Origin: Candidatus Lindowbacteria bacterium RIFCSPLOWO2_12_FULL_62_27
GTDB taxonomy: Bacteria; Lindowbacteria; 2-12-FULL-62-27
Length of the DNA stretch: 64,000 bases
Direction of reading: 5' to 3'
Assembly: GCA_001784175.1 (NCBI GenBank)
Contig: MFPR01000006.1
Span: forward strand, 202,226-266,225
The notes under the pieces were generated by a model. That model ran no database searches. It was not told where the DNA came from and saw nothing but the letters and a program-made list of their open reading frames with translations. A program made the translations under genes and the position numbers. Shown in pieces: positions 1 to 21,973 of this stretch; position 1 is the stretch's first letter; each line of letters begins with the position of its first letter.

Positions 1-359
1 ACGTTATAGTATCCGCCGAGGCTGTTTTGATTGCCCTCGTCGTAATGCGACACGAGAAATACGCCCCGCTCGCCGATCTCGGGCGCCCGGCTCCTGTAGG
101 CGGACGCGGCCGGCCTGACCGGCGGAACTTTGCGGAGCCTGTAAATGTCGAGCCTGTCTTTTTTTTCATGGATCACACCGATCTGCCCGGCGCGGATTTC
201 GGATACATCCTTGAAGCCCCAGTCGGCGAGCAGGATCTCCGTTCCCAGCACAGGATGCGGCACGTGTGATTCCGCGGCCGGCCGGTCGAAGGCCGTGCCG
301 AGAAGGAAAGGAAGCGCGATAAAAATCGGAAGGATAACTCGCAGGGATCGGACGTTCAT
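1..359 (-). CDS. Secreted protein of unknown function, C-terminus outside window
   Basis: The reading frame stays open from an ATG at 359 to the window edge (119 codons). It starts with a typical signal peptide (MNVRSLRVILPIFIALPFLL, then GTAF), so the product should be exported. The mature part contains VLGTEILLADWGFKDVSEIR and later GVFLVSHYDEGNQNS; I do not recognise a family. The ATG overlaps the stop of the EpsI-like gene (ATGA, 359-356), so it is the next cistron of the exosortase operon and is probably translationally coupled. No function can be assigned from the visible part. Confidence 0.75.
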   Translation of the reverse strand, partial: MNVRSLRVILPIFIALPFLLGTAFDRPAAESHVPHPVLGTEILLADWGFKDVSEIRAGQIGVIHEKKDRLDIYRLRKVPPVRPAASAYRSRAPEIGERGVFLVSHYDEGNQNSLGGYYN

Positions 360-2308
360 GGGCTCCAGAACAAATTGCCCGCAAATCCGCCCTCCAGCGC
401 TTTCATCGCCAGGATCGCCCAGGCGGTGCCGATCGCCGACGGCGCCGGAGAAAACTGATGCTCGATTTCCCGGTCCGCGTACCGGATGCCGCCCCGGACG
501 TTCATCTTCGGATCCAGCATATGGATCAGAATGTCCTCCGCCTCGCCGGGCTTGCCCAGCCGCGCGGCCGCGACGGCCACGCCGAGCGTCCCCTCGGACC
601 AGGCCAGCTCAAATTCGTTCCAATCCATGCTCGGCTTGTTCGGGAAAAAATGATGCTGTGAAGGCGTGTCCTCGTAGACAGGCAAATCCAGATATGGCTT
701 GTAGCCCAGAATCCCGTTCGACCGGTTGCGATACCGTCCGGCCGACTCCATGGCCGTCCGGGCGAGATCCCGCTCGCCCGCCGCTTCCAGAAACAGCGCG
801 CCCCAGGACGCGCAGTCCAGTGCCTGGACCGTGTCGGGGCCGTCCGGCCTCATGCCCCTGTGGAACTGCCCGGTGGTTCGATCGAACATCTTGAGGAGGC
901 CCGATCGTATTTTTTCGGCCGCCTCCCGGTACTTCGCCTGCTCGGTGATGTAGCCGAGGTCGCGCAGGAAAAAGAAGGCGTCGATATTATGCTCGGCGCT
1001 GCACCATACAACCTCACCCGGACGGTAGACTTCCTGAAGCGTCCCGCCTTCGGACGCGTAGATGTAGACGCCCTTGCCGCCGGTGACCAGCCCGTACCGC
1101 GGGTCGCCGGCGGATTGTATCTGCCGGCTCAAGACCGCCGATGCTATTTTTTCGGCGAACTGCAGGTAGTCGGCAAGGATGCGGTCGTCGTTCAAGGCAT
1201 TGGGATTTTTCGCGAGCTCCGACAGAATGTAGTAACTGACCGCGTATCCCACCCAGCAGTTTGCGCCTGTGCGGATGATGGCGCCGTCGTTGTCATTTTC
1301 GTCCGGCCATGTGTTGTGGGTATTGAGCCCGAACCAGAGATCGCCGTCGGGCCGGGCGCTGCGCATCATGCCGTTGATGATTTTGGCCGCCTCCCGGCCG
1401 CGGCCGAGCATGGAGAGCGCGATCACGGACACGGCGTTGTCGTAGATGGACGAGCGGGAAAATGTGTAGCGGTAGCCGTGCGCGGCCGGAGACTGGTTAT
1501 AGGAAAGAACGAGACCGCGGCGCTGATAAACGGGAAAAGGAATCGTCGGGTTTGGCACCATCTGGCCGATCAGGAACGCCTCGAGATCCGCCGCCTTTTC
1601 GGCCACGGCGCCCACGAGCGGTTTGTTTTTGCCGGAGGCGCGATACCGTTCCGTGACCTGCCGTTTGGGAAACAGTCTGGGCGGCGGCTCGGCGTCTCCA
1701 AAAACGGCGGTCGTGACGGCCGTCATGAAATCGGTGAAAATCTCGTCCGGCGCGCGGCGATCGGCCGCCCCCTGCCGGATCGAGAGGCGGAACATGAATG
1801 CGCCATCGGCCGACGTCTGGCGGGCGGAGTTTTTCCAGAAGAAGAAATAGTAGATGTGGTGAATTTCCCCGCCAAACTCGGCGCGTGTGTATTTGACCTG
1901 CAGATCATCCGGCCCGATCCGGATCGTCTTGTATTTCCGCTTCTCCAGGGACCAGCCGTCGTCGATGTAGCAGACCTCGGGGATGTGGAAATCGCTTTCG
2001 AATTTGCCGTAGACGACCATGAAATAAAGCTCAGCGCCGGTGGCGGAGTTCCGGTAAAACCGGGAACTCAGATAGGGATCCTCCCTGCCCTCAACCTCCT
2101 CGCCTTTCCACGCTCCCGCGGCGTACGGGATGCCGCCGAAGTTCCCGCTGTGAAACAGATGGGTTGCAAACGAAACACGGGATTCGTGACCGGTGTAAAA
2201 ATACTGGTTGACGTCCGAGACATAGGTGTGAAGCCGCGCCTCTACAGGCGCCTGCGCGATCAGCAGGGCCATGGCATGAAAGACAAACCAGAAAGGCCCC
2301 CTTTTCAT
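356..2308 (-). CDS. EpsI-like (DUF3485) domain fused to a six-hairpin glycosidase-like domain
   Basis: 650 residues from ATG 2308, whose ATGA overlaps the exosortase stop; the open frame extends upstream but that part lies inside the exosortase gene. Residues 1-25 form a signal peptide or anchor. Residues about 25-230 resemble EpsI, the exosortase-associated domain, with the motif HIPEVCYIDDGW at 108-119 (Cys113), matching the family's HxPExCYPxxGW. Residues about 270-640 look like an alpha/alpha-toroid: repeated helical hairpins with NTHNTWPDENDNDGAIIRTG, WCSAEHNIDAFFFLRDLGY and SMDWNEFELAWSEGTLGVAV. EpsI is normally a stand-alone protein or fused to the exosortase, so this pairing is unusual. 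Inference: it acts outside the inner membrane on the polysaccharide or a glycosylated exosortase substrate. The catalytic residues of the toroid are not identified. Confidence 0.75.
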   Translation of the reverse strand: MKRGPFWFVFHAMALLIAQAPVEARLHTYVSDVNQYFYTGHESRVSFATHLFHSGNFGGIPYAAGAWKGEEVEGREDPYLSSRFYRNSATGAELYFMVVYGKFESDFHIPEVCYIDDGWSLEKRKYKTIRIGPDDLQVKYTRAEFGGEIHHIYYFFFWKNSARQTSADGAFMFRLSIRQGAADRRAPDEIFTDFMTAVTTAVFGDAEPPPRLFPKRQVTERYRASGKNKPLVGAVAEKAADLEAFLIGQMVPNPTIPFPVYQRRGLVLSYNQSPAAHGYRYTFSRSSIYDNAVSVIALSMLGRGREAAKIINGMMRSARPDGDLWFGLNTHNTWPDENDNDGAIIRTGANCWVGYAVSYYILSELAKNPNALNDDRILADYLQFAEKIASAVLSRQIQSAGDPRYGLVTGGKGVYIYASEGGTLQEVYRPGEVVWCSAEHNIDAFFFLRDLGYITEQAKYREAAEKIRSGLLKMFDRTTGQFHRGMRPDGPDTVQALDCASWGALFLEAAGERDLARTAMESAGRYRNRSNGILGYKPYLDLPVYEDTPSQHHFFPNKPSMDWNEFELAWSEGTLGVAVAAARLGKPGEAEDILIHMLDPKMNVRGGIRYADREIEHQFSPAPSAIGTAWAILAMKALEGGFAGNLFWSP

Positions 2309-3099
2309 CGCCGTCGCCTTTTCAAAACCGCTCCGGCCCAGACAAGGCTTCCCAGCGCCATCAGATAGAAGATCCATGCAGAAGGACCGTGCCAGAATTT
2401 GACGGCCGTGTCGACTCCCCACGCCTGCCCGACTCCCAGCATGGCGGTCACGCGGAGGACGTTGAAGGCGATCGAGGAGACGATGGAGAAGGCGATCAGC
2501 ATGAACTTGCGCGCAAAGTTCAGTTCCAACAGATGCGCGAGAAGTGCGGAGATCGCGAAGAGCACGATCAGCGATTGAAACCCGGAACAGGCGGCCGCCA
2601 CGCGGACCGGGCCGTCCTTGAGATGCACCAGGGATCCTTCATGAGAAAGCGGCGCGCTCATGAGGGCCATAAGACCGAGAGACGCGCGCTGCGCGAACAA
2701 CTGCAGGATGGAGAGAAACTCCGCATAAAAAGGAAAGGGCATCGTGAAGAGCACGGCGCAGTAGAGGCCGTCGACCCGCCGGGACACGCCGGGCGTCAGA
2801 AAACGGAGCAGCAGAATAGAAGTCAGCAGGAAGCTCGCCATTCCCAGATAGGGGCCCTTCCACGTGAGATAACAGCCCCACGCCACCACCGCCAGCGCCG
2901 CCCCCCATGCCGGGTGGCCGGCCGGGACCTGCTTCGGGGGCCGGAGTTTCTCGGCGATCCACCAGCCGGCGACGAAAAAAAGCGAGAAATCGTAGTACGG
3001 ATTATCTACGCAGTTCCGCCCGTACCAGTAAAAGTCGTTTCTGAAAAAAACCGCCAGCCCCAGATGCAGGGCCGCGGCGGTCAGACTTTTTGCTGGCAA
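2305..3099 (-). CDS. Exosortase (transpeptidase of the PEP-CTERM type)
   Basis: 264 residues, almost entirely hydrophobic, with about eight membrane segments. The exosortase/archaeosortase catalytic triad is visible: Cys171 in AAACSGFQSL, Arg216 in FNVLRVTAM and His237 in KFWHGPSAW. These enzymes cleave C-terminal sorting signals and attach exported proteins to the envelope or release them. The gene overlaps the 3' end of the small substrate gene by 19 bases and the start of the EpsI-like gene by 4, so enzyme, substrate and partner are co-translated. The location next to a glycosyltransferase and an export barrel matches the EpsH-type exosortases that sit in exopolysaccharide loci. Confidence 0.92.
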   Translation of the reverse strand: MPAKSLTAAALHLGLAVFFRNDFYWYGRNCVDNPYYDFSLFFVAGWWIAEKLRPPKQVPAGHPAWGAALAVVAWGCYLTWKGPYLGMASFLLTSILLLRFLTPGVSRRVDGLYCAVLFTMPFPFYAEFLSILQLFAQRASLGLMALMSAPLSHEGSLVHLKDGPVRVAAACSGFQSLIVLFAISALLAHLLELNFARKFMLIAFSIVSSIAFNVLRVTAMLGVGQAWGVDTAVKFWHGPSAWIFYLMALGSLVWAGAVLKRRRR

Positions 3100-3338
3100 G
3101 TCCGGCAGCGTCTGGTCAGCAGGTACCCTCCACCGATGGCAGCCGCCCCGAGAATCATCCAGAGGCCTGGAAGTTCAGGGGCGCTGGGCGCTCCTTTTCC
3201 CTTGTCGCCACCCTTGTCGTCGCTCTTGCCCTTGTCGACACTCTTTCCTTTATCCGCGTCCTTTTCCGCATACACGATGGGCGCAACCGCAAACAGAACA
3301 ACCGCGGTCACCAGGACCACACACACGATACGTTTCAC
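3081..3338 (-). CDS. Small exosortase substrate (PEP-CTERM-like sorting signal)
   Basis: 85 residues, starting at GTG 3338-3336, which overlaps the stop of the upstream gene (GTGA) and is preceded by a strong GAGGAGG ribosome binding site. Residues 1-24 are a signal peptide ending in VYA. The middle (about 25-50) is a low-complexity run of Lys, Asp and Gly (DKGKS repeats). The C-terminus is a tripartite sorting signal: APELPG, a hydrophobic helix (LWMILGAAAIGGGYLL) and a basic end (TRRCRTCQQK). That is the layout cut by exosortases, whose gene follows directly with a 19-base overlap. Two cysteines after the RR are unusual. Inference: a dedicated, probably surface-anchored, very hydrophilic linker or matrix peptide. 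Confidence 0.85.
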   Translation of the reverse strand: MKRIVCVVLVTAVVLFAVAPIVYAEKDADKGKSVDKGKSDDKGGDKGKGAPSAPELPGLWMILGAAAIGGGYLLTRRCRTCQQKV

Positions 3339-4180
3339 ATCTTCACCTCCTCTTCGAATATCACCAACTCCGGATAGATCCAGTTCAGGATCGTATCGAT
3401 CGCGAGTTTATAGTCCATTATCCCGTCAAAATTCCAGGCTTTCAAGTCATATCGGTCCATATCCCAGAGCGGGCCGGTGGAGCCGTCCCAGTCGTCGCCG
3501 CCGGACAGGGTCGACCCGTTGAGGAGATTGCCGGTGGCGTTTCCCTTAATGCCATGCCCGCCGCCGACCCGGAGGGAGACCGGAACATGCCCGGGCGATG
3601 CCCGCGGGAAGGGGAACACATAGACTTCTCCGGGTACCGGCGTTGACAACCCGGAAAAAATGCGGATCCTTTTCCGCGGCGCGGCGTTCTTCCGATACAC
3701 GACGATCATCGTCGCCGCAGCGGTCGAATACTTGAACTTGCCCGTCGGGTTGACCACGTCTGAAAGGATCCTGCCGACGACGACCTCCGTTTCGCCGGCG
3801 GGATCGAACGCGAAAATCTCGTGATAGAGCGTTTCCAGCATGCGCCTCTGATATCCGGCGGCGCGCCGGACGGGAACGGAAAAAACGGCGACTGAATCCA
3901 CCCCCAGCCTGGCCGACTCGCCGGTTACGCAGATAAACCCGGCCACCGCTCCCTTTTGGACTTCCGGCGGAATCCGGAACGCACGCGTCGGATACAGCCG
4001 GTCGCCCGCCGGATGAATGAGCGACTCGCTCCCCACATGCACGGCGCAGCCGGGGAGCTCCGTGTCGTAGAGAACGTCAAAGGACAGCACGCCGTCGGCG
4101 CAGGCCGGGAGGGCGGCAAACAGAAGACAGACAACCGCCGTAATCAGTATTTGAATGTGAGGTATCCGGTCGCGAACCAT
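3335..4180 (-). CDS. Secreted surface protein, DUF3344-like
   Basis: 281 residues with an N-terminal signal peptide (residues about 8-29, ending in ACA-DG). The core has the style of DUF3344 surface domains: AAATMIVVYRKNAAPRKRIR, then GGGHGIKGNATGNLLNGS and DDWDGSTGPLWDMDRYDL, with an acidic tail. It has no sorting signal of its own. The start overlaps the end of the TPR/barrel gene by 37 bases and its stop overlaps the substrate gene, so it belongs to the same transcript. Role unknown; probably an extracellular structural component of the layer handled by the exosortase. The family match is by eye and moderate. Confidence 0.6.
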   Translation of the reverse strand: MVRDRIPHIQILITAVVCLLFAALPACADGVLSFDVLYDTELPGCAVHVGSESLIHPAGDRLYPTRAFRIPPEVQKGAVAGFICVTGESARLGVDSVAVFSVPVRRAAGYQRRMLETLYHEIFAFDPAGETEVVVGRILSDVVNPTGKFKYSTAAATMIVVYRKNAAPRKRIRIFSGLSTPVPGEVYVFPFPRASPGHVPVSLRVGGGHGIKGNATGNLLNGSTLSGGDDWDGSTGPLWDMDRYDLKAWNFDGIMDYKLAIDTILNWIYPELVIFEEEVKM

Positions 4181-6420
4181 GACACATCCCCGCTGAAATA
4201 GTCGGTGTACCGAAGCTCCGCCGTGTAGTCTGCGGAGTTTCCGATCGGCCCTGAGTAGACGAGATCGCCCTCGTGATAGGAATCATGCAGCGCGTTTTCA
4301 TGTTCGTGCTTGTAATGCGCGTACGTGTAGATTTTCGTTTCCGGATCGTATCGGGACCAGAACAGCCGTCCGGCGTAGACGGCCGCCATCGGCGATGTCA
4401 CGTGTTTGTAGGTCGCCTCAATCCCGAGTCCGGCCGGGCTGGAGAGCTTGCGGGTGAGTTTTGCCTGCGTGGTCTCCCGGGTGATCCGGCTCACGCTGAA
4501 ATGCTCCGCCGTGAACTCCTCAAACAGCGTCCAGCCCGGCGCGATCTCATCCTGGTGCGAGACGTCGTAGGTGGTGAGGTCCCCGATTTTCAAATTGCCT
4601 GTGGTCTGGTCGGCGAAATAGTCGTCCTCCGAATAGAGGAGGGTCGTCCGCCGGCCCCGGCTTTTGTGCTCGAGGATCCCGTAGATGTCGCCCCGCCGGC
4701 GCTTGTTTCTGAGCGGGCTGAACGACGGCAGGTCCTGCTTGTACTCGTGCATGGCGCCATAGAGGACGGAATTGAGCGACGCGGACCATTGCTTCGCCCA
4801 TCGCGCGGAAATGGACTCGCGGACGAGATCATAATTCCTGTCGCCGGCCCGCTGATCTTTTTCGATCAGATGCGCCTGGCTGCTTTTGACGAGAACGTTG
4901 TTGTCGGGCGAAAAATGATGCTGGTAATCCACGATGCGTTCCTCGGTGTACGTCTTATAGCGGACGGCCAGGTTCGGCGGGTCGGCGTCGTCGTAGCGGG
5001 TAAGCGAATACTTGACCCGGGCCTGCGGCGCGGTCATTTCGCGGATGACACGCATGCCCTCCTGCGCCTCCGCCGATTCCGGATCGATGGACAACGCCTT
5101 CTGATAATACTCCATGGCGCGCCCGCCCATGCCCGCGAACCGCCAGGTGTTGCCGAGGCCCACCAGCGCGGACACGTTGTCGGGCTCGCGATCGAGAAGC
5201 GTCTGGTACCATTGGACCGCCTCGTCCGTCTTGTCCTGCCACGAATAGAGCTTGCCAAGCGACAAATAATTGTTTTTGTTGTTGGCGTCGAGCTGGATGG
5301 ACTTGCGAAGCTCGTTGGCGGCGTCCGCGAACCGGCGGGCGGAAGCGTACTGGTTGGCGAGTTCGCCGCGGGCCTGCGGCGCCTCCGGATTTTTTTCGAG
5401 AAACTGCTCGAGGAGTTGCACGGCTTCTCCGGATTTTCCTCTCTGGCCCAGAAGCCTCGCATGGGCCGTCACGATCTCCTCGTCCGATGGGAACGATGCC
5501 AGAAGCTCCGCCGAAAGCCTGAATGCGTCATCCATTTTGCCCTGCCAGCGCAGGACGTCCCTAAGACCCCTTTTGGCGTCTCCGTCCGCCGGCTGAATCT
5601 CGAGAATCCGCCGGTATGCATCCTCCGCCTCGCGCAGCCGCCCCGTCCAGGACAGGACGCGAGCCCGGACGTTGAGCGCGTCGGTGTTCCGGGGGTTCTT
5701 TTCAAGAATGGCCCCGATGACTTTCAAGGATTCGTCGTACTTTCCGTTCCAGCCCAAGGCGCGCGCAAGGTTGAAGCGGATGTCGTCGTTGGCCGGATCC
5801 AGTTCAAGCGCCCGGGCGTACAAGCGCTCCGCGTCCGGCAGCCGTTTCTCGGCCACGGCCTTTTCAGCCTCCCGGAGCGTCTTCGAAACGGCCGGGGACG
5901 CCTGGGCGCGGATCACCGCGAGGGCCTGCCGGTTTTTCGGATCATCCTTCAGGAGCGCCTTTGCAAGGTCGACGGCCGCCGCCGTGTACTCGTCCGGATG
6001 GTCCATGAGTTCCAGCCGCAATTCGGCCGCGAGAACTTCCACGCGCGTATACGCGGTCTTCTTGAATCTGGCCCCGTGATCGGCCAGAAACCGCCGAAGC
6101 TTGTCGTATCGCTCGATCCATATATAATTCTTGATGATCCCGATGGCGGCGTCGCCGTAGTCCGGCGCAAGTTCGAGCACGCGCGAGAAAAGCGCCTCGG
6201 ATTTATCGTACTTCTTGCTCCAGAGCATTCCCAACCCGTAGACGACCATGACGTCGACATCGTTGGGATTTTCCGCCAGAAATTTTTCGGCCAGTTCCGC
6301 GACGCCCGCATAATCGCCCTTGTTCAATTTTTCGCGCACCCGCTCAAACGGCTCCTGCGCGCCGGCGGGTCCGGGCCAGAGGAAGAGGCCGGCCAGCAAC
6401 AGGAGGATACCCCTGCTCAT
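4144..6420 (-). CDS. TPR protein with C-terminal outer-membrane barrel (YaiO-like), polysaccharide export
   Basis: 758 residues from ATG 6420 (ATGA overlap with the glycosyltransferase stop); upstream in-frame codons lie in that gene. A signal peptide (about 1-20, ending in AGA-QE) is followed by roughly 13 tetratricopeptide repeats (about 25-480; for example PDYGDAAIGIIKNYIW, PANDDIRFNLARALGWNGKY, PDNVSALVGLGNTW). The last 270 residues alternate polar and aromatic residues and end in TGYLTFKY, typical of a beta-barrel finishing on an aromatic. The architecture parallels YaiO and the export proteins PgaA, PelB and BcsC. Next to a processive glycosyltransferase, it is the likely periplasmic scaffold and outer-membrane exit for the polysaccharide. 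Confidence 0.8.
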   Translation of the reverse strand: MSRGILLLLAGLFLWPGPAGAQEPFERVREKLNKGDYAGVAELAEKFLAENPNDVDVMVVYGLGMLWSKKYDKSEALFSRVLELAPDYGDAAIGIIKNYIWIERYDKLRRFLADHGARFKKTAYTRVEVLAAELRLELMDHPDEYTAAAVDLAKALLKDDPKNRQALAVIRAQASPAVSKTLREAEKAVAEKRLPDAERLYARALELDPANDDIRFNLARALGWNGKYDESLKVIGAILEKNPRNTDALNVRARVLSWTGRLREAEDAYRRILEIQPADGDAKRGLRDVLRWQGKMDDAFRLSAELLASFPSDEEIVTAHARLLGQRGKSGEAVQLLEQFLEKNPEAPQARGELANQYASARRFADAANELRKSIQLDANNKNNYLSLGKLYSWQDKTDEAVQWYQTLLDREPDNVSALVGLGNTWRFAGMGGRAMEYYQKALSIDPESAEAQEGMRVIREMTAPQARVKYSLTRYDDADPPNLAVRYKTYTEERIVDYQHHFSPDNNVLVKSSQAHLIEKDQRAGDRNYDLVRESISARWAKQWSASLNSVLYGAMHEYKQDLPSFSPLRNKRRRGDIYGILEHKSRGRRTTLLYSEDDYFADQTTGNLKIGDLTTYDVSHQDEIAPGWTLFEEFTAEHFSVSRITRETTQAKLTRKLSSPAGLGIEATYKHVTSPMAAVYAGRLFWSRYDPETKIYTYAHYKHEHENALHDSYHEGDLVYSGPIGNSADYTAELRYTDYFSGDVSWFATGYLTFKY

Positions 6421-7847
6421 GACGTCGCCGGCGCCGGCTTGGCCCCGCCGAATCCCTTCCGCGTCATCACGCCCCACTCGTGGCCGCCGCCGCGGATCTT
6501 GTCGATGATGGCCCAGAACCGCCACCAGACGTTGAGCTGGCGGTAGCCGAAGTTTTCGATGACCGCATAGAAGATCAGCCGCGCGAGATGCGATATTTTC
6601 GGGTAGGTCCGAAATCCGATTTCCTCCAGGAGCAGCACCATGATGGACTGAATGATTCCGAGGACGACCGAGGCGAACGAAAAGAGCAGATAGAATTTCA
6701 TGTTGAGATGTCCCGTGAGGATGCAGGCGGCGAAGATGAGGTACCCGAGGATTTCAAAGGGCGCGCTCAGCGTTTCGACGAAGAGATAGTACGGAAATCC
6801 GAGCATCCCGGCCGCGCCGTATTTCGGGTTGAACAGGATGCGCCGGAACTTGATCATGGCGTCGATCGTCCCCTTCTGCCAGCGCAGGCGCTGCCGGCGG
6901 AGCACTTTCAGATCCTCAGGAACTTCTGTCCAGCATACCGGATCAGGCGTAAAAACGATCCGGTAGGGCTCCCGGCGCTGCCGCATGAGATCGTGCATCG
7001 AAACCACCAGTTCCATGTCCTCGCCGAGGCTGCCCTTCCGGAATCCGCCGCAGTCGATCATCACATCCCGGCGGAACGCGCCGAACGCGCCGGAGATCAC
7101 GAGGAGGCTGTTGATCGCCGACCAGCCCATCCGGCCGAAGAGAAAGGCCCGGAGGTACTCGACCATCTGGAATCGCGCAAGCATGGACTGCGGCATGTCG
7201 ACCCCGACGACCCGGCCGAGCTTGACGTCGCAGCCGTTGACGATGCGGATCATCCCGCCGACCGCAATGACCCGGGAATCCTCGATGAACGGCCGGACCA
7301 TTTTGAGAATGCTGTCCTCCTCGAGAATGCTGTCCGCGTCGATGGCTAGTACGTAGGGATTGCGGGCCGCGTTGATCCCGACGTTGTTCGCGTCCGCCTT
7401 CCCGCCGTTCTCCTTGTCGATCACCATGAGCTGCGGGTAGGCCGGACTGCGGTAGACGCGCCGGACCGCTTTGGTCGGAATGAGCCCCGGAACCTCCTCC
7501 GGGACGCTTCGGAGATCAAACGTGTCCCTCAAAACCGAAAGCGTCCGGTCGGGCGAACCGTCGCTGACGACGACGACCTCGAAATTGGGATAGCGCAGAT
7601 TGAGGAGGTTCTTGACGCTCTCCGCGATCGTCAGCTCCTCGCGGTAGGCCGGCACGATGATGCTGACGGGTAGGTTCAGCTCGCTGTGAAAGAGCTGGCC
7701 GAGTTCGACGCTCGACTGGTGACGTTTCTGCCGGCGGTGGTGAATGAACGACGCGGAGATGATGAGGATCGTGATCGCGTTGATGATCAGAAAATACACG
7801 ATGGTGATCCAGCCGAGAACCTCCAGAAAGCGCTCGAAGGCCTCCAC
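6417..7847 (-). CDS. Membrane-bound processive family 2 glycosyltransferase
   Basis: 476 residues if started at GTG 7847, the first plausible start after the stop of the HEAT gene (7853); no ATG exists near the N-terminus. One membrane segment (about 11-33), a GT2 domain and three or more C-terminal membrane segments. All catalytic signatures of processive synthases are present: DGS at 96-98, DAD at 170-172, ED at 276-277 and Q319-R322-W323 (QRLRW). This is the layout of PgaC/IcaA, cellulose and hyaluronan synthases, which polymerise and extrude a beta-linked polysaccharide from UDP- or GDP-sugars. The sugar cannot be read from sequence. The downstream TPR/barrel protein would carry the chain across the outer membrane. 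Confidence 0.88.
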   Translation of the reverse strand: MEAFERFLEVLGWITIVYFLIINAITILIISASFIHHRRQKRHQSSVELGQLFHSELNLPVSIIVPAYREELTIAESVKNLLNLRYPNFEVVVVSDGSPDRTLSVLRDTFDLRSVPEEVPGLIPTKAVRRVYRSPAYPQLMVIDKENGGKADANNVGINAARNPYVLAIDADSILEEDSILKMVRPFIEDSRVIAVGGMIRIVNGCDVKLGRVVGVDMPQSMLARFQMVEYLRAFLFGRMGWSAINSLLVISGAFGAFRRDVMIDCGGFRKGSLGEDMELVVSMHDLMRQRREPYRIVFTPDPVCWTEVPEDLKVLRRQRLRWQKGTIDAMIKFRRILFNPKYGAAGMLGFPYYLFVETLSAPFEILGYLIFAACILTGHLNMKFYLLFSFASVVLGIIQSIMVLLLEEIGFRTYPKISHLARLIFYAVIENFGYRQLNVWWRFWAIIDKIRGGGHEWGVMTRKGFGGAKPAPATS

Positions 7848-7852
7848 CAGAC

Positions 7853-8986
7853 TCAGGCCGCCACCCAGGACGCCCGCTGAAGAGCCCAGACGGCCGCGTC
7901 GCGGGAAGCGCTCGCCTGACCGGGACGCGCGGCGGCGTCCCATAAGAGGCGCTCGCCTTTCTTGCCGAACGCCATGAGCGCGCCCGCCGCGGCCTGTCGG
8001 ACCGCAACGTCTCTGTCGCTGAGCAACTCGACGAGGTCCGGCGCCGCGCCGGTCGCCATGCACATCCCCAGCGCCTCGGCGGCGCCCTGCCGGATTTTTG
8101 GCGTCGGAGAAATCAGACACGTCCGGAGGACCCAGTCCGACGCCGGCAGGCCGATGCGCCCGAGCGCGCGGATGGCCGCGAATTTGAGCGTGTCGTCGTC
8201 GCCGCGCGCGACCGCCTCCAGGGCCGGCCGGGCCTCGACGACCCTGAAGTGTCCCATGATTTCGATCATGGGCTGGAGCCAGTTCGGCGCCACGCGGCCG
8301 GACAAGAACTGCCGGAGCGTCTCCATGGCGACGCCGGGGCCGAACTCGAGAAGCAGTTCAATGATTTTTGCCCGACTCCAACCCTTCTGCCGGCAGACGA
8401 CCGCGACCACTTCACGGATGACCTCCGGATCGCCGAGCATCCCGATCGACCGGGCCGAGTCGTAGGCGACAAGGGGATCCTTGTCTTTCAGAAGGCCGAG
8501 CAGGGTCGGGATCGATTCGGCCAGCCCGGCGTAGCCGCACAGAAGCGCGGCCCGGGCGCGCGTCCAGCCGCCGGCGGATTTCAGGTCCTTCAGGAAAACG
8601 GCGCTGAGACCGGTCTCGTCGCAGAATTTTTTCAACCGCGCGCGCTGGCTCACCGGAATGCGAACCGAGAAATGACAGATCAATTGCACAAGATGTTCGC
8701 GATCGGCCTTTTTCAGCGCAGGGTAATCCGTCTTGTGGTCGCCGTCCGTCCCTGTCAGGAGACGCACCAGGATCGGCCGCCACACGGTCTCGATCCGCGC
8801 CTGCCGCCGGCGCTTCGAAAGAGACCGCAGTCTCAAGAAAAACAGATACATCACCAACGACGCGGCGACAAACAGCCCCATCCCCAGCGCAAACCCCGCC
8901 CACACCGTCTCGGCGCCGCCGCGCTGATAGGCCCAGCCGGTGAACGCGTCCAGGAGGCGATCGGCGCCCCCGCCTACTCCGGCCAT
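7853..8986 (-). CDS. Membrane-anchored HEAT-repeat protein
   Basis: 377 residues. A single membrane helix near the N-terminus (about 28-52, FALGMGLFVAASLVMYLFFL) followed by a basic stretch, then about seven HEAT-like repeats (ARSIGMLGDPEVIREVVAVV, FAAIRALGRIGLPASDWVLR, IRQGAAEALGMCMATGAAPD, VRQAAAGALMAFGKKGERLL). Such repeats form protein-binding solenoids, here on the cytoplasmic side. It overlaps the upstream regulator gene by 13 bases and ends 5 bases before the glycosyltransferase start. Similar HEAT proteins sit next to polysaccharide synthases. Inference: an adaptor that links the regulators to the synthase. Confidence 0.8.
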   Translation of the reverse strand: MAGVGGGADRLLDAFTGWAYQRGGAETVWAGFALGMGLFVAASLVMYLFFLRLRSLSKRRRQARIETVWRPILVRLLTGTDGDHKTDYPALKKADREHLVQLICHFSVRIPVSQRARLKKFCDETGLSAVFLKDLKSAGGWTRARAALLCGYAGLAESIPTLLGLLKDKDPLVAYDSARSIGMLGDPEVIREVVAVVCRQKGWSRAKIIELLLEFGPGVAMETLRQFLSGRVAPNWLQPMIEIMGHFRVVEARPALEAVARGDDDTLKFAAIRALGRIGLPASDWVLRTCLISPTPKIRQGAAEALGMCMATGAAPDLVELLSDRDVAVRQAAAGALMAFGKKGERLLWDAAARPGQASASRDAAVWALQRASWVAA

Positions 8987-10062
8987 TGGCCGTATTCGAG
9001 CCGGTCCAGAAACTCGATCGCGCTTTCATCTGCTTTCAACACGCCCGTGACGACGTCCACCGACTTGGGATTGCCCAAGGACTGCCCGAGCTGGCGCCGC
9101 CAAGTGGGAATGATCTTGCCTGAATCCTTGGAATCGGTGGCCGGCATCAAAACCGCGAACATCACCGGCTCGATGCGGGCGCACAGGTCGGTGGGCCGGG
9201 CCATGTCCAGGAGCTGTCTGGCCAGACCCGGCAGGCCCTGGTCGCTGACCGCGCCGCCGGTCATGGTCCTGAACCTCAGCAGGCCGAGGGAAAGCGGCAT
9301 GTCCATCCGCCGGGCCACGGCCACCTGATGGTGCAGGCGCTCGATGAAGTGCCCGCGGTTGGTCAGTCCCGTGAGCTCGTCCACCACGGTGGTCGCGGCG
9401 AGCTTGGCGTTGCTTCGCACCAGCGTGGAATTAATGTGCGTCAGCTCCTTGATCTGCGCCCGGGCGCGGCGGAGGTCGTCGCGGATCTGCAGCGTGGTTT
9501 TCATCCGGGCCAGGAGTTCCTGCGCGTCGACGGGTTTTCGCAGAAAGTCCGCCGCCCCGAGGTCGAGCGCCCGGACGACGCTTTCGGTGTCGGCTTTCTC
9601 CGACACCATCAGGATCGGAAACGGATTCTCGCTGAATTGCATTCGCATCTGCCGGCAGACCTCGTACCCGTCCATGCCGGGCATCAGCATGTCAACGACG
9701 GCGATGTCCGGCCGGCCGGAGGTCACGGACTGGAGGAGTCCCAGCGCCTCCGGGCCGTTCGACGCGGTCCGGCACACAAAGCCGGCGCCCTCCAGCCGGA
9801 CCCTCAGGATCTCAACGATGTCGGGGTCGTCATCCACCAGGAGCACGGTTTTTTTCCCGTCCTCCTGTTTCTCCGCGGGCGCCATGAGGTCGGCCTCGGA
9901 AAAGGAGAGGTCGATGTCGGCCTGGATCACCGAAGAGGCGAGGTCGCCGGCCGCGCCGGCCGCGGCGCCTGCATTGAGCGGCGCCTGCGACCCCGCCGCC
10001 GGCAGAAGGTCGGCTTCGGTGAAGAGGAGTTCGAGTTCCGACGAAGGTTCCGGCGGGGTCAC
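8974..10062 (-). CDS. Response regulator with degenerate GGDEF domain
   Basis: 362 residues. The N-terminus carries a duplicated short acidic motif (LLFTEADLLPA near 10-20 and LSFSEADLMAPA near 52-63). A REC domain follows (about 70-190) with the acidic pair in LLVDDDPD, phospho-acceptor Asp in VVDMLMPGMDG and Lys in FLRKPV. Residues about 215-350 are GGDEF-like (VVDELTGLTNRGHF is the canonical entry), but the catalytic RYGGDEF position reads ARIEPVMF, so cyclic-di-GMP synthesis is not expected. It could still bind a nucleotide or protein. ATGA overlap with the upstream REC gene. Confidence 0.85.
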   Translation of the reverse strand: MTPPEPSSELELLFTEADLLPAAGSQAPLNAGAAAGAAGDLASSVIQADIDLSFSEADLMAPAEKQEDGKKTVLLVDDDPDIVEILRVRLEGAGFVCRTASNGPEALGLLQSVTSGRPDIAVVDMLMPGMDGYEVCRQMRMQFSENPFPILMVSEKADTESVVRALDLGAADFLRKPVDAQELLARMKTTLQIRDDLRRARAQIKELTHINSTLVRSNAKLAATTVVDELTGLTNRGHFIERLHHQVAVARRMDMPLSLGLLRFRTMTGGAVSDQGLPGLARQLLDMARPTDLCARIEPVMFAVLMPATDSKDSGKIIPTWRRQLGQSLGNPKSVDVVTGVLKADESAIEFLDRLEYGQWPE

Positions 10063-10592
10063 TTTGACTCGCCGCTCTTGGGCGTCTCTCCCGCCGCCGC
10101 CTTTTTCTTCGCAAACTCGGCATCGTAAGCCTTCTTCAGGATCTCTTCCACCTTTTTTTTCTGAAACGGCTTGGCCAGAAAAAAGAAACTGCCCATGCCC
10201 GCCTGCGAGATCTGGTCGGCCGTGAAGCGTGCGCTGGTGATGATGAAGACCGTATCGGGATTGGTCGCGGCGATGATCTGGATCGGCTTTGCGCCGCCGC
10301 CGTCCGTCTGGTCGATGTCCACCGCCGCAAAACGGACCTTCGACTCTGTCAGGATCGACCGGGCTTCCACCGCCGATCCGACGACGCCCACGACCTTGTA
10401 GCCAGACTCCTCGATCTGGCTCTTGAGGATGTTCCGGTGAAATGCGGAGGCATCGACGAGGACGATCTGCTTCAGGTCGACGTCCTCCTCGATTTCCTCC
10501 TCGTCGTCTTCCTCCCAGTCATCCGGAAACTCGTAGAAATCCTCGCTGCCGTCGTCCAGCATGAAGAATTTCGGCTGTTCCTGCGGATCCAT
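10059..10592 (-). CDS. Single-domain response regulator with acidic N-terminal extension
   Basis: 177 residues. The first 40 are strongly acidic (FPDDWEEDDEEEIEEDVD) and probably disordered. The rest is a REC domain: VLVDASAFHRN in place of the usual acidic pair, phospho-acceptor Asp in FAAVDIDQTD, Thr/Ser in IITSARF and Lys in LAKPFQKK. The first acidic pocket is incomplete (one Asp), so phosphorylation may be weak. No output domain; it probably acts by protein contact. It lies 15 bases after the TPR gene and overlaps the REC/GGDEF-like gene by 4 bases. Confidence 0.82.
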   Translation of the reverse strand: MDPQEQPKFFMLDDGSEDFYEFPDDWEEDDEEEIEEDVDLKQIVLVDASAFHRNILKSQIEESGYKVVGVVGSAVEARSILTESKVRFAAVDIDQTDGGGAKPIQIIAATNPDTVFIITSARFTADQISQAGMGSFFFLAKPFQKKKVEEILKKAYDAEFAKKKAAAGETPKSGESK

Positions 10593-10607
10593 GTCGATCC
10601 CTCCTTC

Positions 10608-11468
10608 CTAAGCCGTCTTGCCCGCCGGCCCTGCCGGCGGCTTGGCCTTCGCGGCGGCCTCCTTTTCGGCGGCCTGTTTCTCAACGACCGCCTGAACATC
10701 GGCGATCGCCTTCCGGATGTAGGCGAGGAGCGGATTCTGTTTGCCCAGACCCTTGCCGAGAATCTCCAGCGCCTTCTGGAGGGCATGATCCGCTTCCTTC
10801 AACCGGTCGATGTTCTTGTAGAATAATCCCAGGTCCTTCCACAGCTCGCCGACCTTGATATGATCCTCGCCCAGCACCTTCGACCGCACCTTGAGCGTGC
10901 GTTTGAGGAGCGCCTCGGCCTGCTCGTTCATGCCGAGGATCCGGCAGACGCCCGACAGTTCCTGGTAGGCGGAGAGGAGCCGGGGGTGGTCCGGGCGGAG
11001 TTTCTTGTGCCAGATGTTGAGGGAATTCTCGTAGGACTCGCGGGATTCCGGGTAGCGGGACCGGATGCGGTAAAAGGCGCCGAGATTGTACTTGATCTCC
11101 CCCACCAAAGGATGCTCCGGCCCGACCTCCGCCTCGGCTTTGCGGCTGTATTGATTGAAATGGAGTTCGATCTCGAAAAATTTGTCCAGCTTCAGATACG
11201 CCTCCGCCAGAAGGCCAAGCGTCAGCGGGATCTGGGGATGGTCCGCCTTGAGCTGGCCGCGGTGGATTTCCAGCGCCCGCTCCAGAACGGGAATGGAGTC
11301 GCGCCATTTCGACATCGACAGATACAGGGACCCGAGCCGGGTCAGGAGCGCGCCGGTTTCGGGATGGTTCGGCCCGAAGGCCGCGTCTTTTTCCTTTTCC
11401 GCAATCTTTTTCTTCAGATCCTCCTCGTAGGCCTTGGCGTTGGCCCGGAGGTTCGAAGTTTTATTCAT
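10608..11468 (-). CDS. Cytoplasmic tetratricopeptide-repeat protein
   Basis: 286 residues, no signal peptide. About five TPRs of the kinesin-light-chain type with the recurring GxxHPxxxxxLxxLxxLY pattern (FGPNHPETGALLTRLGSLYL, LKADHPQIPLTLGLLAEAYL, VGPEHPLVGEIKYNLGAFY, LRPDHPRLLSAYQELSGVCR, LGEDHIKVGELWKDLGLFY). The tail (about 255-286) is an Ala/Lys-rich coiled-coil-like stretch. Its ATGA overlaps the stop of the HDOD gene, tying it to the same operon. Likely a scaffold for the neighbouring regulators. Confidence 0.82.
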   Translation of the reverse strand: MNKTSNLRANAKAYEEDLKKKIAEKEKDAAFGPNHPETGALLTRLGSLYLSMSKWRDSIPVLERALEIHRGQLKADHPQIPLTLGLLAEAYLKLDKFFEIELHFNQYSRKAEAEVGPEHPLVGEIKYNLGAFYRIRSRYPESRESYENSLNIWHKKLRPDHPRLLSAYQELSGVCRILGMNEQAEALLKRTLKVRSKVLGEDHIKVGELWKDLGLFYKNIDRLKEADHALQKALEILGKGLGKQNPLLAYIRKAIADVQAVVEKQAAEKEAAAKAKPPAGPAGKTA

Positions 11469-12742
11469 CGTCCTGTGAAGGTGGCCATGAGGTTGGCCAT
11501 GTTGGCGTCCACCCGTTCGGCCATTTTATCCGGATTGAAATTCTCGCCCAGCTTGAGCGGCCCCCGGTACCGCTTGCCGAGCTGATCGAGCTGCTCGGAA
11601 TAGGCGAACGCGTCCAGCTTCGGGTCCAGCTCGCTGATCGTCGAGGCCATATGCACGATGTAGACTTCGTCGGCGAGGTTGGGCGTGTTGAGGAGCAGTT
11701 GGAAATCGTGATGGTGGAGCATGGTGCTCTGGATCGTGGATTTCGGCAGTTGCCACAGATTGAACAAAAATCCGCCGAGGTCGGCGTGGTTCCCGCCCAG
11801 CACCGCCTTCTCGGCGTCGATCGGCTTCTTGCCGGCGGCCAGCAGTTCCTCGATTTTGGTCTGCATCGGCCGGAAGTATTGATACATGAGAAGGTATCCG
11901 ATGTCGTGCAGCAAGCCGCACACGAACAGCTCGTCCGCTTCCGCCAAACGCTTGTGCTCGCCGACCTCCTTGCTCCACTGCGCCGTCCGGATGGCGTTTT
12001 CCCAGAATCTTTGCGCAAACTGCGGCGGCACCGCCTGGAACTTCTGCATGACCGCCGCCGCGATCACCAGTTGCCGGAGCTTCTTGATGCCGAGCACGAC
12101 GAGGGCCTTGGTCACGCTGGTGATTTTGTCGCGAAGCCCGTAGAAGGCCGAGTTGACGACGCGGAGCATCGTCGAGGTGAGGCCGGGATCGAGCGAGAGA
12201 ATTTCGCCGACCTTGTCGAGATTGACCTCCGGGTCGTCCAGCATGACCACGGCGCGCTGGGCGGTGGCGGGCAGGGGCGAAATTTCCTCGATGTTTTTCA
12301 GTACCGTGCGGACCTGCCGGTCAAGCCCGATTTTTTCCTCGGTCGGCGGCGGATCGGGTTCCTTGGCGAGCTCGGGGTTGGTTCCAAGGAAGGTCTTGAT
12401 ATGGCCGATGATTTTGTCGGTGGTCGTGAGCTTCTGGGTGACGGCGGCCTGGGCAAAGAGGAAGAGGTCGTCTTTCTGGAGTTTCAGGAGCAGGCCGATC
12501 TGCTGCGCGTTCATGAGATTCAGCCGGCCCGCGCACTCGCCGAACATCCCGCCTCCGCGCGACTGCTCGAGCAGGATGGAGTTGATCTGGTCGGGCTGAA
12601 TGAATCCGCGAAACGCGCCCAGTTGACCGATCCGCCGGTCGAAGGCGCTCATCTGCCGCACCGCACGCAACACGTCATCCTGGGCCATGATGTTGGTGGC
12701 CCGAAGATACTGGATGAACTTCTGTAATTTGGCCAGACTCAT
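11465..12742 (-). CDS. HDOD signalling protein with intact HD pair; first gene of the exosortase operon
   Basis: 425 residues from ATG 12742. Residues about 35-95 resemble the GspE/MshE N-terminal fold (RRIGQLGAFRGFIQPDQI). Residues about 150-350 are an HDOD domain (ISPLPATAQRAVVMLDDPEV, RVVNSAFYGL, then LLHDIGYLL with His279-Asp280). It is the only one of the five HDOD proteins in this window that keeps the HD pair. HDOD proteins are mostly non-enzymatic signalling scaffolds. A promoter at 12751-12779 sits 8 bases upstream of the ATG. The start choice is supported because all paralogues begin with the same M(S/N)xxxLQxFI sequence. Confidence 0.87.
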   Translation of the reverse strand: MSLAKLQKFIQYLRATNIMAQDDVLRAVRQMSAFDRRIGQLGAFRGFIQPDQINSILLEQSRGGGMFGECAGRLNLMNAQQIGLLLKLQKDDLFLFAQAAVTQKLTTTDKIIGHIKTFLGTNPELAKEPDPPPTEEKIGLDRQVRTVLKNIEEISPLPATAQRAVVMLDDPEVNLDKVGEILSLDPGLTSTMLRVVNSAFYGLRDKITSVTKALVVLGIKKLRQLVIAAAVMQKFQAVPPQFAQRFWENAIRTAQWSKEVGEHKRLAEADELFVCGLLHDIGYLLMYQYFRPMQTKIEELLAAGKKPIDAEKAVLGGNHADLGGFLFNLWQLPKSTIQSTMLHHHDFQLLLNTPNLADEVYIVHMASTISELDPKLDAFAYSEQLDQLGKRYRGPLKLGENFNPDKMAERVDANMANLMATFTGR

Positions 12743-17754: not shown

Positions 17755-18657
17755 TCATGCGATCAACGACGCCACGATGTCGTCCGCCTTGGTCAACTCG
17801 GCGTCGACATTGTCGAACACCGTGTTGATGTCCGATTGGACGATGTTCAGAATCTTCATGGCGTTCAGAGACAATTTCGGCGTCCCGGCCTCGCCCGACG
17901 CGCCGAACCGGATCTTGCGGGCCACGTGATCCCCCACGTGGACCAGGGCGGCGAGGGTCTGGTTCAGCTCGGCCAGTTGCGGGTGGGGATAGTACCGGAT
18001 GCTTTCTTCAAGATGAAGCGGCAATTTCCATTTTCGGGCCAGGAGCGCCCCGGCCTCGCAGTGGTCCAGCCCGAGAACGGCCCGCTCGGTCTCCGCCAGC
18101 GTCTTTTTTTCCTTCTTCGCCTTCTGGATGGCCTGGACAAACCGGTCGTGCAGGTACTGGTCGAACACGAGCTTGCCGATCCCGTGCAGAATGCCGGCCA
18201 CGAGGCACTCCTCCGGCAGCGGATACTTGATCCGCGTGCCGACCATGTTGGCGATCACGCCCGTGCCGATCGAATGCTTCCAGAACTCGATCAGGTCGAA
18301 TTCCTTTTCCTTCCCGCCCTCCAGGCCGAAGAGCCGGACGACCGAAGCCGACAGCGCCAGGCTTTTGACGGCGTTGAACCCGAGGATCACGACGCCCTGG
18401 CTCACGGTCGAGATCTGCCGGGGGAATCCGTAGTAGGAGGAATTGACGATCTTGAGGATGCGGGCGGTCAGCGACTGGTCCAGGCTGATCTGGCGGGTCA
18501 GCTCCTGCACGTTGCTCTTCGGATTCTCCATGACTTCGAGAATCCGCGCAATCACCGCGGGGAGCGTCGGGACTTTTTCTATGCACTGAATGATTTGCGT
18601 GACCGCCTCCGGCGCTCCGCCGCTGGTCCCTTCGGTTGTCGCTGCCGAATCAGCCAT
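17755..18657 (-). CDS. Short HDOD protein without the HD pair
   Basis: 300 residues, lacking the N-terminal GspE-like domain of the longer paralogues. The HDOD domain spans about 20-230 (VPTLPAVIARILEVMENPKS, IVNSSYYGFPRQISTVSQGV). The catalytic motif is degraded to LHGIGK (HG for HD), although HVGDHV is kept downstream, so phosphodiesterase activity is not expected. Promoter signals must lie in the 80-base divergent gap with the response regulator at 18738. It probably works as a signalling adaptor. Confidence 0.85.
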   Translation of the reverse strand: MADSAATTEGTSGGAPEAVTQIIQCIEKVPTLPAVIARILEVMENPKSNVQELTRQISLDQSLTARILKIVNSSYYGFPRQISTVSQGVVILGFNAVKSLALSASVVRLFGLEGGKEKEFDLIEFWKHSIGTGVIANMVGTRIKYPLPEECLVAGILHGIGKLVFDQYLHDRFVQAIQKAKKEKKTLAETERAVLGLDHCEAGALLARKWKLPLHLEESIRYYPHPQLAELNQTLAALVHVGDHVARKIRFGASGEAGTPKLSLNAMKILNIVQSDINTVFDNVDAELTKADDIVASLIA

Positions 18658-18737
18658 AGACCGGTGACGCTATATTAATATGGAGGAGAAGTAAACCTGT
18701 TTTTTATGACCTTGGGGTAAGGTACACTCTCGCCGAC
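18658..18737. promoter_or_regulatory. Divergent intergenic region between an HDOD and a REC gene
   Basis: This 80-base gap must hold promoters for both directions. For the plus strand, TACACT (18723-18728) is a fair -10 box placed so that transcription would begin about 3 bases before the ATG at 18738; no convincing -35 is seen. For the minus strand an AT-rich stretch (TATATTAATA, 18671-18680) may serve as -10. Confidence 0.35.
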
Positions 18738-19892
18738 ATGAACCTCAACGTTCTTGTGGTGGACGACGAAGCGGATGTGTGCGAGGTCCTGAAAGACGGC
18801 CTGAAGGTGCACGGGATCGGCGTCACGATCGCCCGCGACGGCAAGGAGGCCGTTCTTCAGGCGCTCGTCAAGGCGCCGGACGCCGTGCTCATGGACATCC
18901 TTATGCCCGGGCTGGCCGGACTCGACGCGCTCGGCCTGTTCAAAATCATCGAGCCGATCCGGACCGTGCCGGTGATCATGCTGACGGCGTTGAAGAGCAA
19001 GGAAGACATTCTGAACGCCATGCGGGCCGGTGCGGCGGATTACATCGGAAAGCCGTTCGACATCGCCGACACGGTGACCCGCCTCCGGCGGGTCGTGGCC
19101 CGGCCCGCGCCCATGACATTTCCCGTGTTCCGATATCTGTCGTATCGCGCGGGATCGGACGGCCGGGGCCTGCGGCTGGAACTCGAAGGGGATTTCTCAG
19201 AAGACGCGGCGGAGGATCTGGAGGTCCTGATCCGGGCGCTGTTGCCGCTGCAGCCGGTCCGGATCGACCTCGATTTCGAGAAAGTTCCGAACATCGGCGA
19301 CCGGCTGGTTCCGAATCTCGTCGCGGTCCGGGACATGGCGGCGGCCCGGGGCGGTAAAGTTCTGGTCGCGAATCTCGATCCCAAAAAATACCGCGCCGCG
19401 GCCGTGTCCCCCATCCGAAACATCTTTCCGGCCGTCCCGGCGCCGCCGGAAGAACCTGTGCGGTCCACACGGGCCTCGAAAAAAGTGGACGCCGTCGCAA
19501 AAGACATCGACGAACAGATGTCCCAGGTCCTTTCGCGCCTCCCCGGACTCCGCTTCGATTTCAAGCTGCGGAACGAACTGTCCGTGCTCGAGCTTCAGGG
19601 ACAACTGACCGGGGACACCAGGAGCGAAGTCGAGAAGGCGTTCCAGGCCGTCACGGAGGCCCACGCGCACGTGATGGTCGTCATCGAGAAGGCTTCCCAG
19701 TTCGACGCGCGCGGCATGCTGCACTTGGTGGAAAAAATCACGGACACGAAAAACCGGGAGGGACTGAAAGTCTACGTCGTTTGCCGCAATCAGGAGCTGC
19801 AGGTGGCCTACCGGAACGCCCGTGGGCATCTGGTGGCCGGCATCTACGACGATCGCGACAAGGCGCTGTCGTCGTTCCGGGCGTCCGGGTGA
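18738..19892 (+). CDS. Response regulator with two STAS-like domains
   Basis: 384 residues. REC domain at 1-120 with VLVVDDEADV, phospho-Asp in VLMDILMPGLAG, Thr in MLTALKS and Lys in IGKPFD. Two STAS-like alpha/beta domains follow: about 140-225 (LRLELEGDFSEDAAEDLEVL, RGGKVLVANLDPKKY) and about 280-380 (LSVLELQGQLTGDTRSEVEK, FDARGMLHLVEKI). STAS domains in anti-anti-sigma factors bind partners through a Ser/Thr, which I cannot place with confidence here. The product therefore looks like a phosphorylation-controlled protein-interaction module. It is related to the gene at 23311. Confidence 0.78.
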   Translation: MNLNVLVVDDEADVCEVLKDGLKVHGIGVTIARDGKEAVLQALVKAPDAVLMDILMPGLAGLDALGLFKIIEPIRTVPVIMLTALKSKEDILNAMRAGAADYIGKPFDIADTVTRLRRVVARPAPMTFPVFRYLSYRAGSDGRGLRLELEGDFSEDAAEDLEVLIRALLPLQPVRIDLDFEKVPNIGDRLVPNLVAVRDMAAARGGKVLVANLDPKKYRAAAVSPIRNIFPAVPAPPEEPVRSTRASKKVDAVAKDIDEQMSQVLSRLPGLRFDFKLRNELSVLELQGQLTGDTRSEVEKAFQAVTEAHAHVMVVIEKASQFDARGMLHLVEKITDTKNREGLKVYVVCRNQELQVAYRNARGHLVAGIYDDRDKALSSFRASG

Positions 19893-19916
19893 TCCCATGA
19901 TCCTTGATACGGGAAT

Positions 19917-19945
19917 TTGACACCCGGCCAATCTTCGTTTACTAT
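19917..19945 (+). promoter_or_regulatory. Strong sigma-70-type promoter, leaderless geometry
   Basis: TTGACA (19917-19922), 17-base spacer, TACTAT (19940-19945). Only six bases separate the -10 box from the ATG at 19952, so the expected start of transcription is the A of the start codon. There is no ribosome binding site between them. Confidence 0.65.
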
Positions 19946-19951
19946 TGAGCC

Positions 19952-20338
19952 ATGAGTAAATCCGTCAACGTCCTTGTGGTGGATGACGACCGGGCCGTCT
20001 GCGACGTGATCCGCCGGACGCTCGAGGCGTCGTTCAAGCCGGTGTCGGTCAAGGTGGTCTATGACGGGGTGAGCGCGGTGGAGTCCCTGGACGAATCGCT
20101 CGATCTCATTGTCCTCGACCTCGGATTGCCCCAGCTTCGAGGGGAGGGCGTTTCGCTCGCGAACGAATTGAAAGGCGCGAACGCTCCCATCCTGATCATC
20201 ACCGGCGAGCCGAATCCGGACCTTGAGTTCATGGGCGACATCAACGTCATGGGCATTCTGAAAAAACCGTTCGACCTGAACGACCTCGTCAAAGCCTCAA
20301 AGACCATCCTGTCCGGCCGGGAATATTCCGGGAACTGA
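19952..20338 (+). CDS. Single-domain response regulator (CheY-like)
   Basis: 128 residues, a bare REC domain: VLVVDDDRAV acidic pair, phospho-Asp in LIVLDLGLPQ, Thr in LIITGEPN and Lys in LKKPFD. No output domain, so it acts through protein contact or as a phosphate relay. It is followed after 12-18 bases by the hybrid histidine kinase, its probable partner. The promoter at 19917-19945 predicts an mRNA starting at this ATG. Confidence 0.92.
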   Translation: MSKSVNVLVVDDDRAVCDVIRRTLEASFKPVSVKVVYDGVSAVESLDESLDLIVLDLGLPQLRGEGVSLANELKGANAPILIITGEPNPDLEFMGDINVMGILKKPFDLNDLVKASKTILSGREYSGN

Positions 20339-20350
20339 CGCCGCTTGGGG

Positions 20351-21967: not shown

Positions 21968-21973
21968 ATTCCG

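Follow-up and report, generated by a model that had tools for sequence, protein, structure and literature searches.

A recurrent polysaccharide synthase locus with an exosortase and a single tiny putative substrate in a Candidatus Lindowbacteria genome

The analyzed stretch of 64,000 nucleotides (hereafter, the window) belongs to the genome of Candidatus Lindowbacteria bacterium RIFCSPLOWO2_12_FULL_62_27 (contig MFPR01000006.1, positions 202,226 to 266,225; G000:C6:202226-266225). The assembly comprises 4.39 Mb and is 94% complete; its phylum is represented by three genomes in the genome set used. A gene run at the beginning of the window encodes an exosortase, its putative substrate of 85 amino acids (aa), an EpsI domain fused to a glycosidase-like domain, a family 2 glycosyltransferase (GT2), a TPR/outer-membrane-barrel protein, and several proteins with regulatory or scaffold domains (Table 1). 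The twelve minus-strand open reading frames (ORFs) are open at the coordinates listed and supported by codon usage, and, from the HDOD gene (start 12742) to the last gene, they are joined by overlaps of 4-37 bases or gaps of 5-15 bases with the best-fitting starts; the tight one-strand packing reported in the first-pass annotation was thus borne out. The upstream limit that it set at 12742 did not stand, since the run continues on the same strand with a GH94 gene ending 22 bases upstream of the HDOD gene, followed by DUF559 and sodium:solute symporter genes. Its domain calls (HDOD, TPR, two REC, HEAT, GT2, TPR, exosortase, and EpsI) are backed by Pfam and NCBIfam matches: HDOD, TPR_12, Response_reg (twice), HEAT_2, Glyco_tranf_2, TPR, Exosortase_EpsH, and DUF3485/EpsI. 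A single transcript across the run is plausible. The promoter scan yielded two sites, not above chance, terminator-like sites were in excess but dispersed (36 vs. 17.6 expected), and Rfam and tRNA scans of the window gave no matches.

A neighborhood search, as proposed with the first-pass annotation, revealed a recurrent system. In total 386 genomes sampled across the domain were searched with the profile of the EpsI fusion and for the secreted 281-aa protein encoded in the run; a targeted search of the phyla of G132 (368 genomes) and G294 (77 genomes) provided further loci, and the profiles of every operon protein were then run on the recovered loci. The full-length EpsI-glycosidase fusion was found in 3 of the 386 genomes, namely the window genome, its nearest relative found (G002, same family), and G132, which is kin at the domain level only. 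Strong matches to the 281-aa protein came from the same three genomes, with one further weak match (G332) that had no related neighbors. Genes for the HEAT protein, GT2, the 281-aa protein, the substrate, the exosortase, and the EpsI fusion occur together in all eight readable loci, which represent three phylum-level lineages; the TPR/outer-membrane-barrel gene is present in seven of them.

The gene set is largely collinear across the three lineages. In G459, HEAT-GT2 is directly followed by the block 281-aa protein-substrate-exosortase-EpsI fusion. The same block is preceded by HEAT-GT2-(HDOD, other strand)-TPR/barrel in G002, and by HEAT-two sugar-ABC-type (ATP-binding cassette) genes-GH94-CBM30 protein-GT2-TPR/barrel in G132 and G675, while in G678 it stands between GH94-HEAT-GT2-two TPR genes and TPR/barrel. 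G769 and G770 have the order REC-HEAT-GT2-CBM30 protein-TPR/barrel-281-aa protein-two or three substrates-exosortase-EpsI fusion, with GH94 on the opposite strand at the locus in G769. Four loci truncated by contig ends (G672, G674, G766, and G768) are consistent as far as they can be read.

The exosortase passes the cut-offs of PF09721 (94.1 bits vs. 25.7) and TIGR04178 (54.4 vs. 23), and the alignment places Cys171, Arg216, and His237 as previously assigned. It scores below the cut-off of every named Xrt family (XrtA TIGR03109, 84.6 vs. 208; XrtP, 16.5 vs. 200), and its NCBIfam matches did not include XrtG. No match was obtained in an exosortase search of viral contigs. The same genome encodes a second, short exosortase of 193 aa (L006:8081-8662; G000:C6:20080-20661); about 2 kb from it lies the gene of a 69-aa protein ending in PGSILLAILSAVGAGTAWKLRKGKKKQE (L006:10770-10979), and the two may form a further dedicated pair.

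Each full locus has, between the 281-aa protein gene and the exosortase gene, a gene for a small protein (two or three in G769 and G770). A signal peptide in this protein is followed by a low-complexity linker, the motif, a hydrophobic stretch, and finally a basic tail. The alignment of thirteen tails gives PPx[AV]xE[LMIF]xxxxM, in which one Pro, the Glu, and the Met column are invariant. In eight genomes the tail profile matches the locus copies only, at E <= 1.5e-8, the next best hit having E of 0.048; the copies match by construction, and the informative part is the absence of other matches. As this C-terminal signal was found solely in the locus, the exosortase looks dedicated to one locus substrate, in agreement with the single tiny substrate postulated earlier. 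The classical PEP-CTERM domain (PF07589) had no match at E <= 1 in the window genome, the model being short enough for weak variants to escape it. The adjacent 281-aa gene (3335-4180), counted among the twelve but left unnamed in the first-pass annotation, proved to be a conserved core member. Its product is 57% identical in G002, its C-terminal domain is conserved in ten loci, and sequence searches of Pfam, NCBIfam, and the PDB identified no relatives; the AlphaFold model (mean predicted local distance difference test score, pLDDT, of 39) is too poor for use.

The EpsI fusion was also confirmed, its EpsI domain scoring above the PF11984 cut-off (31.9 bits vs. 26.1) and below that of TIGR02914 (31.4 vs. 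42.8). The fusion partner appears to be a six-hairpin, (alpha/alpha)6 glycosidase-like domain: in a low-confidence model, residues 230-618 match the GH76 structure 4v1s_A (Z 16.4, root-mean-square deviation 3.9, 257 residues aligned), with GH94, GH63, and epimerases close behind, all the matches listed being of this fold class. Sequence searches detected no match for the glycosidase-like domain and no PDB relative of the EpsI fusion. Four genomes (G416, G417, G418, and G294) have no exosortase by the GT2 gene, and their glycosidase-like domain lacks EpsI; these relatives retain the HEAT-GT2-glycosidase unit, and in G418 a single protein combines the glycosidase-like domain with GT2. EpsI ‘has no known function’ (PMC1569441). 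As the glycosidase-like domain is fused to EpsI in the exosortase loci, free of EpsI elsewhere, and fused to GT2 in G418, this distribution ties EpsI to the predicted glycan-processing step of the synthase. It also suggests that the exosortase set (281-aa protein, substrate, exosortase, and EpsI) joined a HEAT-GT2-glycosidase unit as an additional module.

GT2 possesses the usual synthase motifs (D96, D170xD, GED275, and Q319RLRW) and transmembrane (TM) segments, and the candidate exporter combines TPRs with a C-terminal aromatic end (...YLTFKY). The first-pass annotation described them as a PgaC/PgaA-like pair; this holds for architecture but not for family identity, as both proteins are far below the cut-offs of PgaC (TIGR03937, 150.8 bits vs. 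422.3) and PgaA (TIGR03939, 62.1 vs. 366.65, in the TPR region only). Poly-N-acetylglucosamine as the polymer was rejected on the same cut-offs. The twelfth gene runs past the window edge in the same contig and encodes a protein of 656 aa. CBM30 was found in all five members of its family (best E 3.5e-11); of the 8 genomes with the system, 6 have a full-length homolog, which was absent from the 5 further genomes searched. The CBM30 protein gene was found once away from the locus, beside another GT2-type gene: in G678, this second GT2-type gene directly follows it (L139:87-2792 and 2765-4273), which suggests a separate two-gene polymer unit. The GH94 gene upstream of the run passes the catalytic-domain cut-off (PF17167, 50.4 vs. 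27), and GH94 genes lie in or adjoin the related loci of G132, G675, G678, and G769. In G132 and G675, sugar-ABC-type genes precede GH94 in a place comparable to that of the symporter in the window. The polymer is probably beta-glucan-like.

Control of the system by HDOD and REC proteins, as initially proposed, was supported only in part. The HDOD, 286-aa TPR, and 177-aa REC genes have no in-order counterpart in any related locus according to the operon-protein profiles, and the HDOD gene of G002 is a different one; HDOD and the small REC were rejected as system members on this ground. Outside the window, HEAT-GT2 is immediately preceded by a REC gene in G769, in G770, and in G294, an exosortase-free relative. 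The window contains an HDOD/REC gene array (17755-26621), and the operon HDOD protein, 68% identical to its paralog at 25341-26621, therefore looks like a local duplication that joined the run. Three HDOD proteins of the array are 40-68% identical to the operon one. On visual inspection, the N-terminal part of the operon protein (RRIGQLGAFRGFIQPDQINSILLEQ) resembles the MshEN motif binding cyclic di-GMP (c-di-GMP), with no Pfam match. The REC-GGDEF protein has EPVMF at the site of the GG(D/E)EF signature and, lacking a recognizable signature, is unlikely to make c-di-GMP. The HEAT protein has one N-terminal TM segment.

In five genomes, serine occupies the column of the catalytic cysteine of the exosortase, Arg and His being kept: G766, G768, G769, and G770, which are four species of one genus, and G459. 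The nine other exosortases found in the phylum of this genus retain Cys. The tree has two changes (approximately unbiased test, p-AU 0.60); a single origin of the Ser forms is neither shown nor rejected. In an exosortase paralog of G678 (L073), Lys replaces His237.

REP-like (repetitive extragenic palindromic) sequences of the form CCTCYCCCCC-n-GGGGGAGAGG, often followed by GAGGTGGGGGG, occur in the window at 15545, 15948, 37874, 44086, and 54900, and also at L005:14487; one interrupts no gene boundary but lies inside the 656-aa CBM30 protein ORF, and two flank the DUF559 gene. Between 44001 and 56000 the GC content falls from about 0.62 to 0.53-0.58, and small toxin-antitoxin-like genes are present at about 50777-52147; this region was possibly acquired. 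A 2343-aa ORF (55405-62436) is followed by a long ORF (62424-63998) running off the window, with a strong AT skew.

Table 1. Features of the gene run, its upstream neighbors, and related Ser-type exosortases
Feature	Coordinates	Strand	Position in the system	Evidence
Start of 656-aa protein, CBM30-like + probable glycosidase domain	1..359	-		Remainder outside window, same contig
EpsI domain fused to (alpha/alpha)6 glycosidase-like domain, 650 aa	356..2308	-	Core	DUF3485 31.9 bits; fold match
Exosortase, 264 aa, Cys171/Arg216/His237	2305..3099	-	Core	PF09721 94.1 bits
Tiny putative exosortase substrate, 85 aa	3081..3338	-	Core	Signal peptide, DKG-rich linker, PSAPELPGLWM + TM + basic tail
Secreted 281-aa protein, no known family	3335..4180	-	Core	GGHGxxGN...SGxDDWDGSSGxxWD motif
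TPR + outer-membrane-barrel-type exporter, 758 aa	4144..6420	-	Core in most loci	TPR matches; C-terminal ...YLTFKY
Processive GT2 polysaccharide synthase, 476 aa	6417..7847	-	Core	GT2 Pfam matches; synthase motifs; TM segments
Membrane-tethered HEAT-repeat protein, 377 aa	7853..8986	-	Core	PF13646 87 bits; N-terminal TM 33-51
REC + degenerate GGDEF protein, 362 aa	8974..10062	-		PF00072 96 bits, PF00990 39 bits
Small REC protein, 177 aa	10059..10592	-	Window genome only	PF00072 38.8 bits
TPR protein, 286 aa	10608..11468	-	Window genome only	PF13424
HDOD protein, 425 aa	11465..12742	-	Putative local addition	PF08668 175 bits
GH94-family glycoside phosphorylase, 924 aa	12765..15539	-	Probable member, outside the range of the first-pass annotation	PF17167 50.4 bits, cut-off 27
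Sodium:solute symporter, 583 aa	15993..17744	-	Possible oligosaccharide/sugar uptake partner	PF00474 128.6 bits
Ser-type exosortases	L069:10280-11104, L070:304-1125, L071:4202-5080, L072:14732-15682, L063:5590-6423		Same gene system	

Location of exosortases in polysaccharide loci, their EpsI partners, and regulators nearby are already known from the PEP-CTERM/exosortase EpsH-EpsI systems of Proteobacteria with PrsK/PrsR/PrsT (Haft 2006, PMC1569441), which also share with the present locus the tripartite C-terminal signal and the nearby TPR and response-regulator genes. The present system differs from them in having a single dedicated substrate, duplicated or triplicated in one genus, a non-PEP motif, an EpsI-glycosidase fusion, and a GT2 synthase with a TPR/barrel exporter; the cut-offs of XrtA and PrsT (TIGR02917, 126.7 bits vs. 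312.2, TPR region only) are not reached. PgaABCD, the poly-beta-1,6-GlcNAc system, likewise comprises a processive GT2, a TPR/outer-membrane barrel, and a periplasmic glycan enzyme, whereas here an exosortase module is present and no deacetylase match was obtained among the operon proteins. Judged by NCBIfam names, synthase-type GT2 proteins are paired with exosortases also in the XrtG- and XrtP-associated glycosyltransferases, but the window GT2 is below both cut-offs (TIGR03111, 114.4 vs. 363.95; NF053846, 47.7 vs. 520). The window exosortase and GT2 reach none of the cut-offs of the named NCBIfam types. In Nostoc, cyanoexosortase B belongs to a hormogonium polysaccharide secretion locus and a protein-polysaccharide link was proposed (PMC12188702); that system has many targets and a Wzx/Wzy-type locus, in contrast to one substrate and a synthase here. 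No description of one substrate, a non-PEP motif, an EpsI-glycosidase fusion, and TPR/barrel export combined was found in the literature compared, which did not include the 2012 exosortase classification, and no relevant publication emerged when the literature was searched for polysaccharide systems combining HEAT, GT2, and REC.

We consider it fairly probable that the locus encodes a polysaccharide system that depends on a synthase and includes a dedicated exosortase module, in which a single processed anchor protein serves for surface attachment. GT2 would make a beta-linked polymer and extrude it across the inner membrane under the control of the HEAT protein and, in some genomes, of REC; the TPR/barrel protein would export it. 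The EpsI-fused six-hairpin domain and the CBM30 protein could trim or process the polymer in the periplasm, while a transporter may take up the released oligosaccharides again for cleavage by the GH94 phosphorylase. After cutting by the exosortase near the PPx[AV]xE motif, the tiny secreted protein would be joined through the C-terminus so created to an acceptor, glycan or lipid, giving an anchor that retains the polymer at the surface; EpsI might position the glycan-processing enzyme at the exosortase. According to published work, exopolysaccharides are stabilized at the cell surface by PEP-CTERM proteins and exosortases; a covalent bond between protein and polysaccharide was proposed as well (PMC12188702). 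A more far-reaching version has, in our opinion, a low probability. According to it, this is an unnamed exosortase subsystem in which the mini-protein is covalently joined to the synthase product as a proteoglycan-like anchored polymer, EpsI is an adaptor bringing a glycan-cutting enzyme to the exosortase, and one branch has evolved natural Ser-nucleophile enzymes.

Several points weigh against the anchor reading. The model of the EpsI fusion has a mean pLDDT of 45 (about 70-89 for much of residues 330-465), and it therefore supports a fold class alone and not an activity. The beta-glucan assignment is based on the family habits of CBM30 and GH94. The substrate linkers share no sequence between lineages and so give no pointer to a binding partner. 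Finally, as the window genome and G002 are close kin, the co-occurrence in the 386 genomes amounts to two independent lineages plus the targeted finds.

The low-complexity, unconserved linker, together with the HEAT and REC control genes adjoining GT2, would also agree with a different role of the tiny protein, that of a synthase regulator or export partner (e.g., a periplasmic subunit freed by cutting), so that the exosortase would gate synthesis rather than attachment. However, the succession of signal peptide, linker, motif, TM segment, and basic tail fits the plan of a sortase substrate, and the exosortase-free HEAT-GT2 units exist without the tiny protein, implying that the synthase does not need it; we regard this role as unlikely. 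The exosortase could alternatively be a general sorter of many surface proteins that merely neighbors an independent polysaccharide operon, as in classical XrtA systems, where the many PEP-CTERM proteins that are sorted have their genes at a distance from that of the exosortase (PMC1569441). The lack of PF07589 matches in the genome, the restriction of the tail profile to locus copies in eight genomes, and the large collinearity of the module in three lineages make this very unlikely.

Since Cys173 of archaeosortase A was reported to be critical (PMC9263693), replacement of the Cys171 equivalent by Ser in five genomes could mean that the exosortase is a non-catalytic membrane partner, with the EpsI-glycosidase as the essential part and the Ser forms as the inactive extreme. 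Yet the genomes with Ser keep the equivalents of Arg216 and His237 and the substrate motif, G769 and G770 even having two or three substrate copies, and the window enzyme has Cys, so that a non-catalytic exosortase seems quite improbable to us.

Well-studied exosortase systems have many substrates. The combination of one exosortase, one tiny substrate, one synthase, and an EpsI-fused glycan domain in three lineages provides a compact model for the cooperation of exosortases with polysaccharide synthesis. With so few parts, the question of how a substrate is joined to its acceptor may be addressed with a handful of genes, and the Ser-for-Cys enzymes would be a natural test of the exosortase catalytic mechanism. 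The system bears on two questions, the acceptor of exosortases and the role of EpsI.

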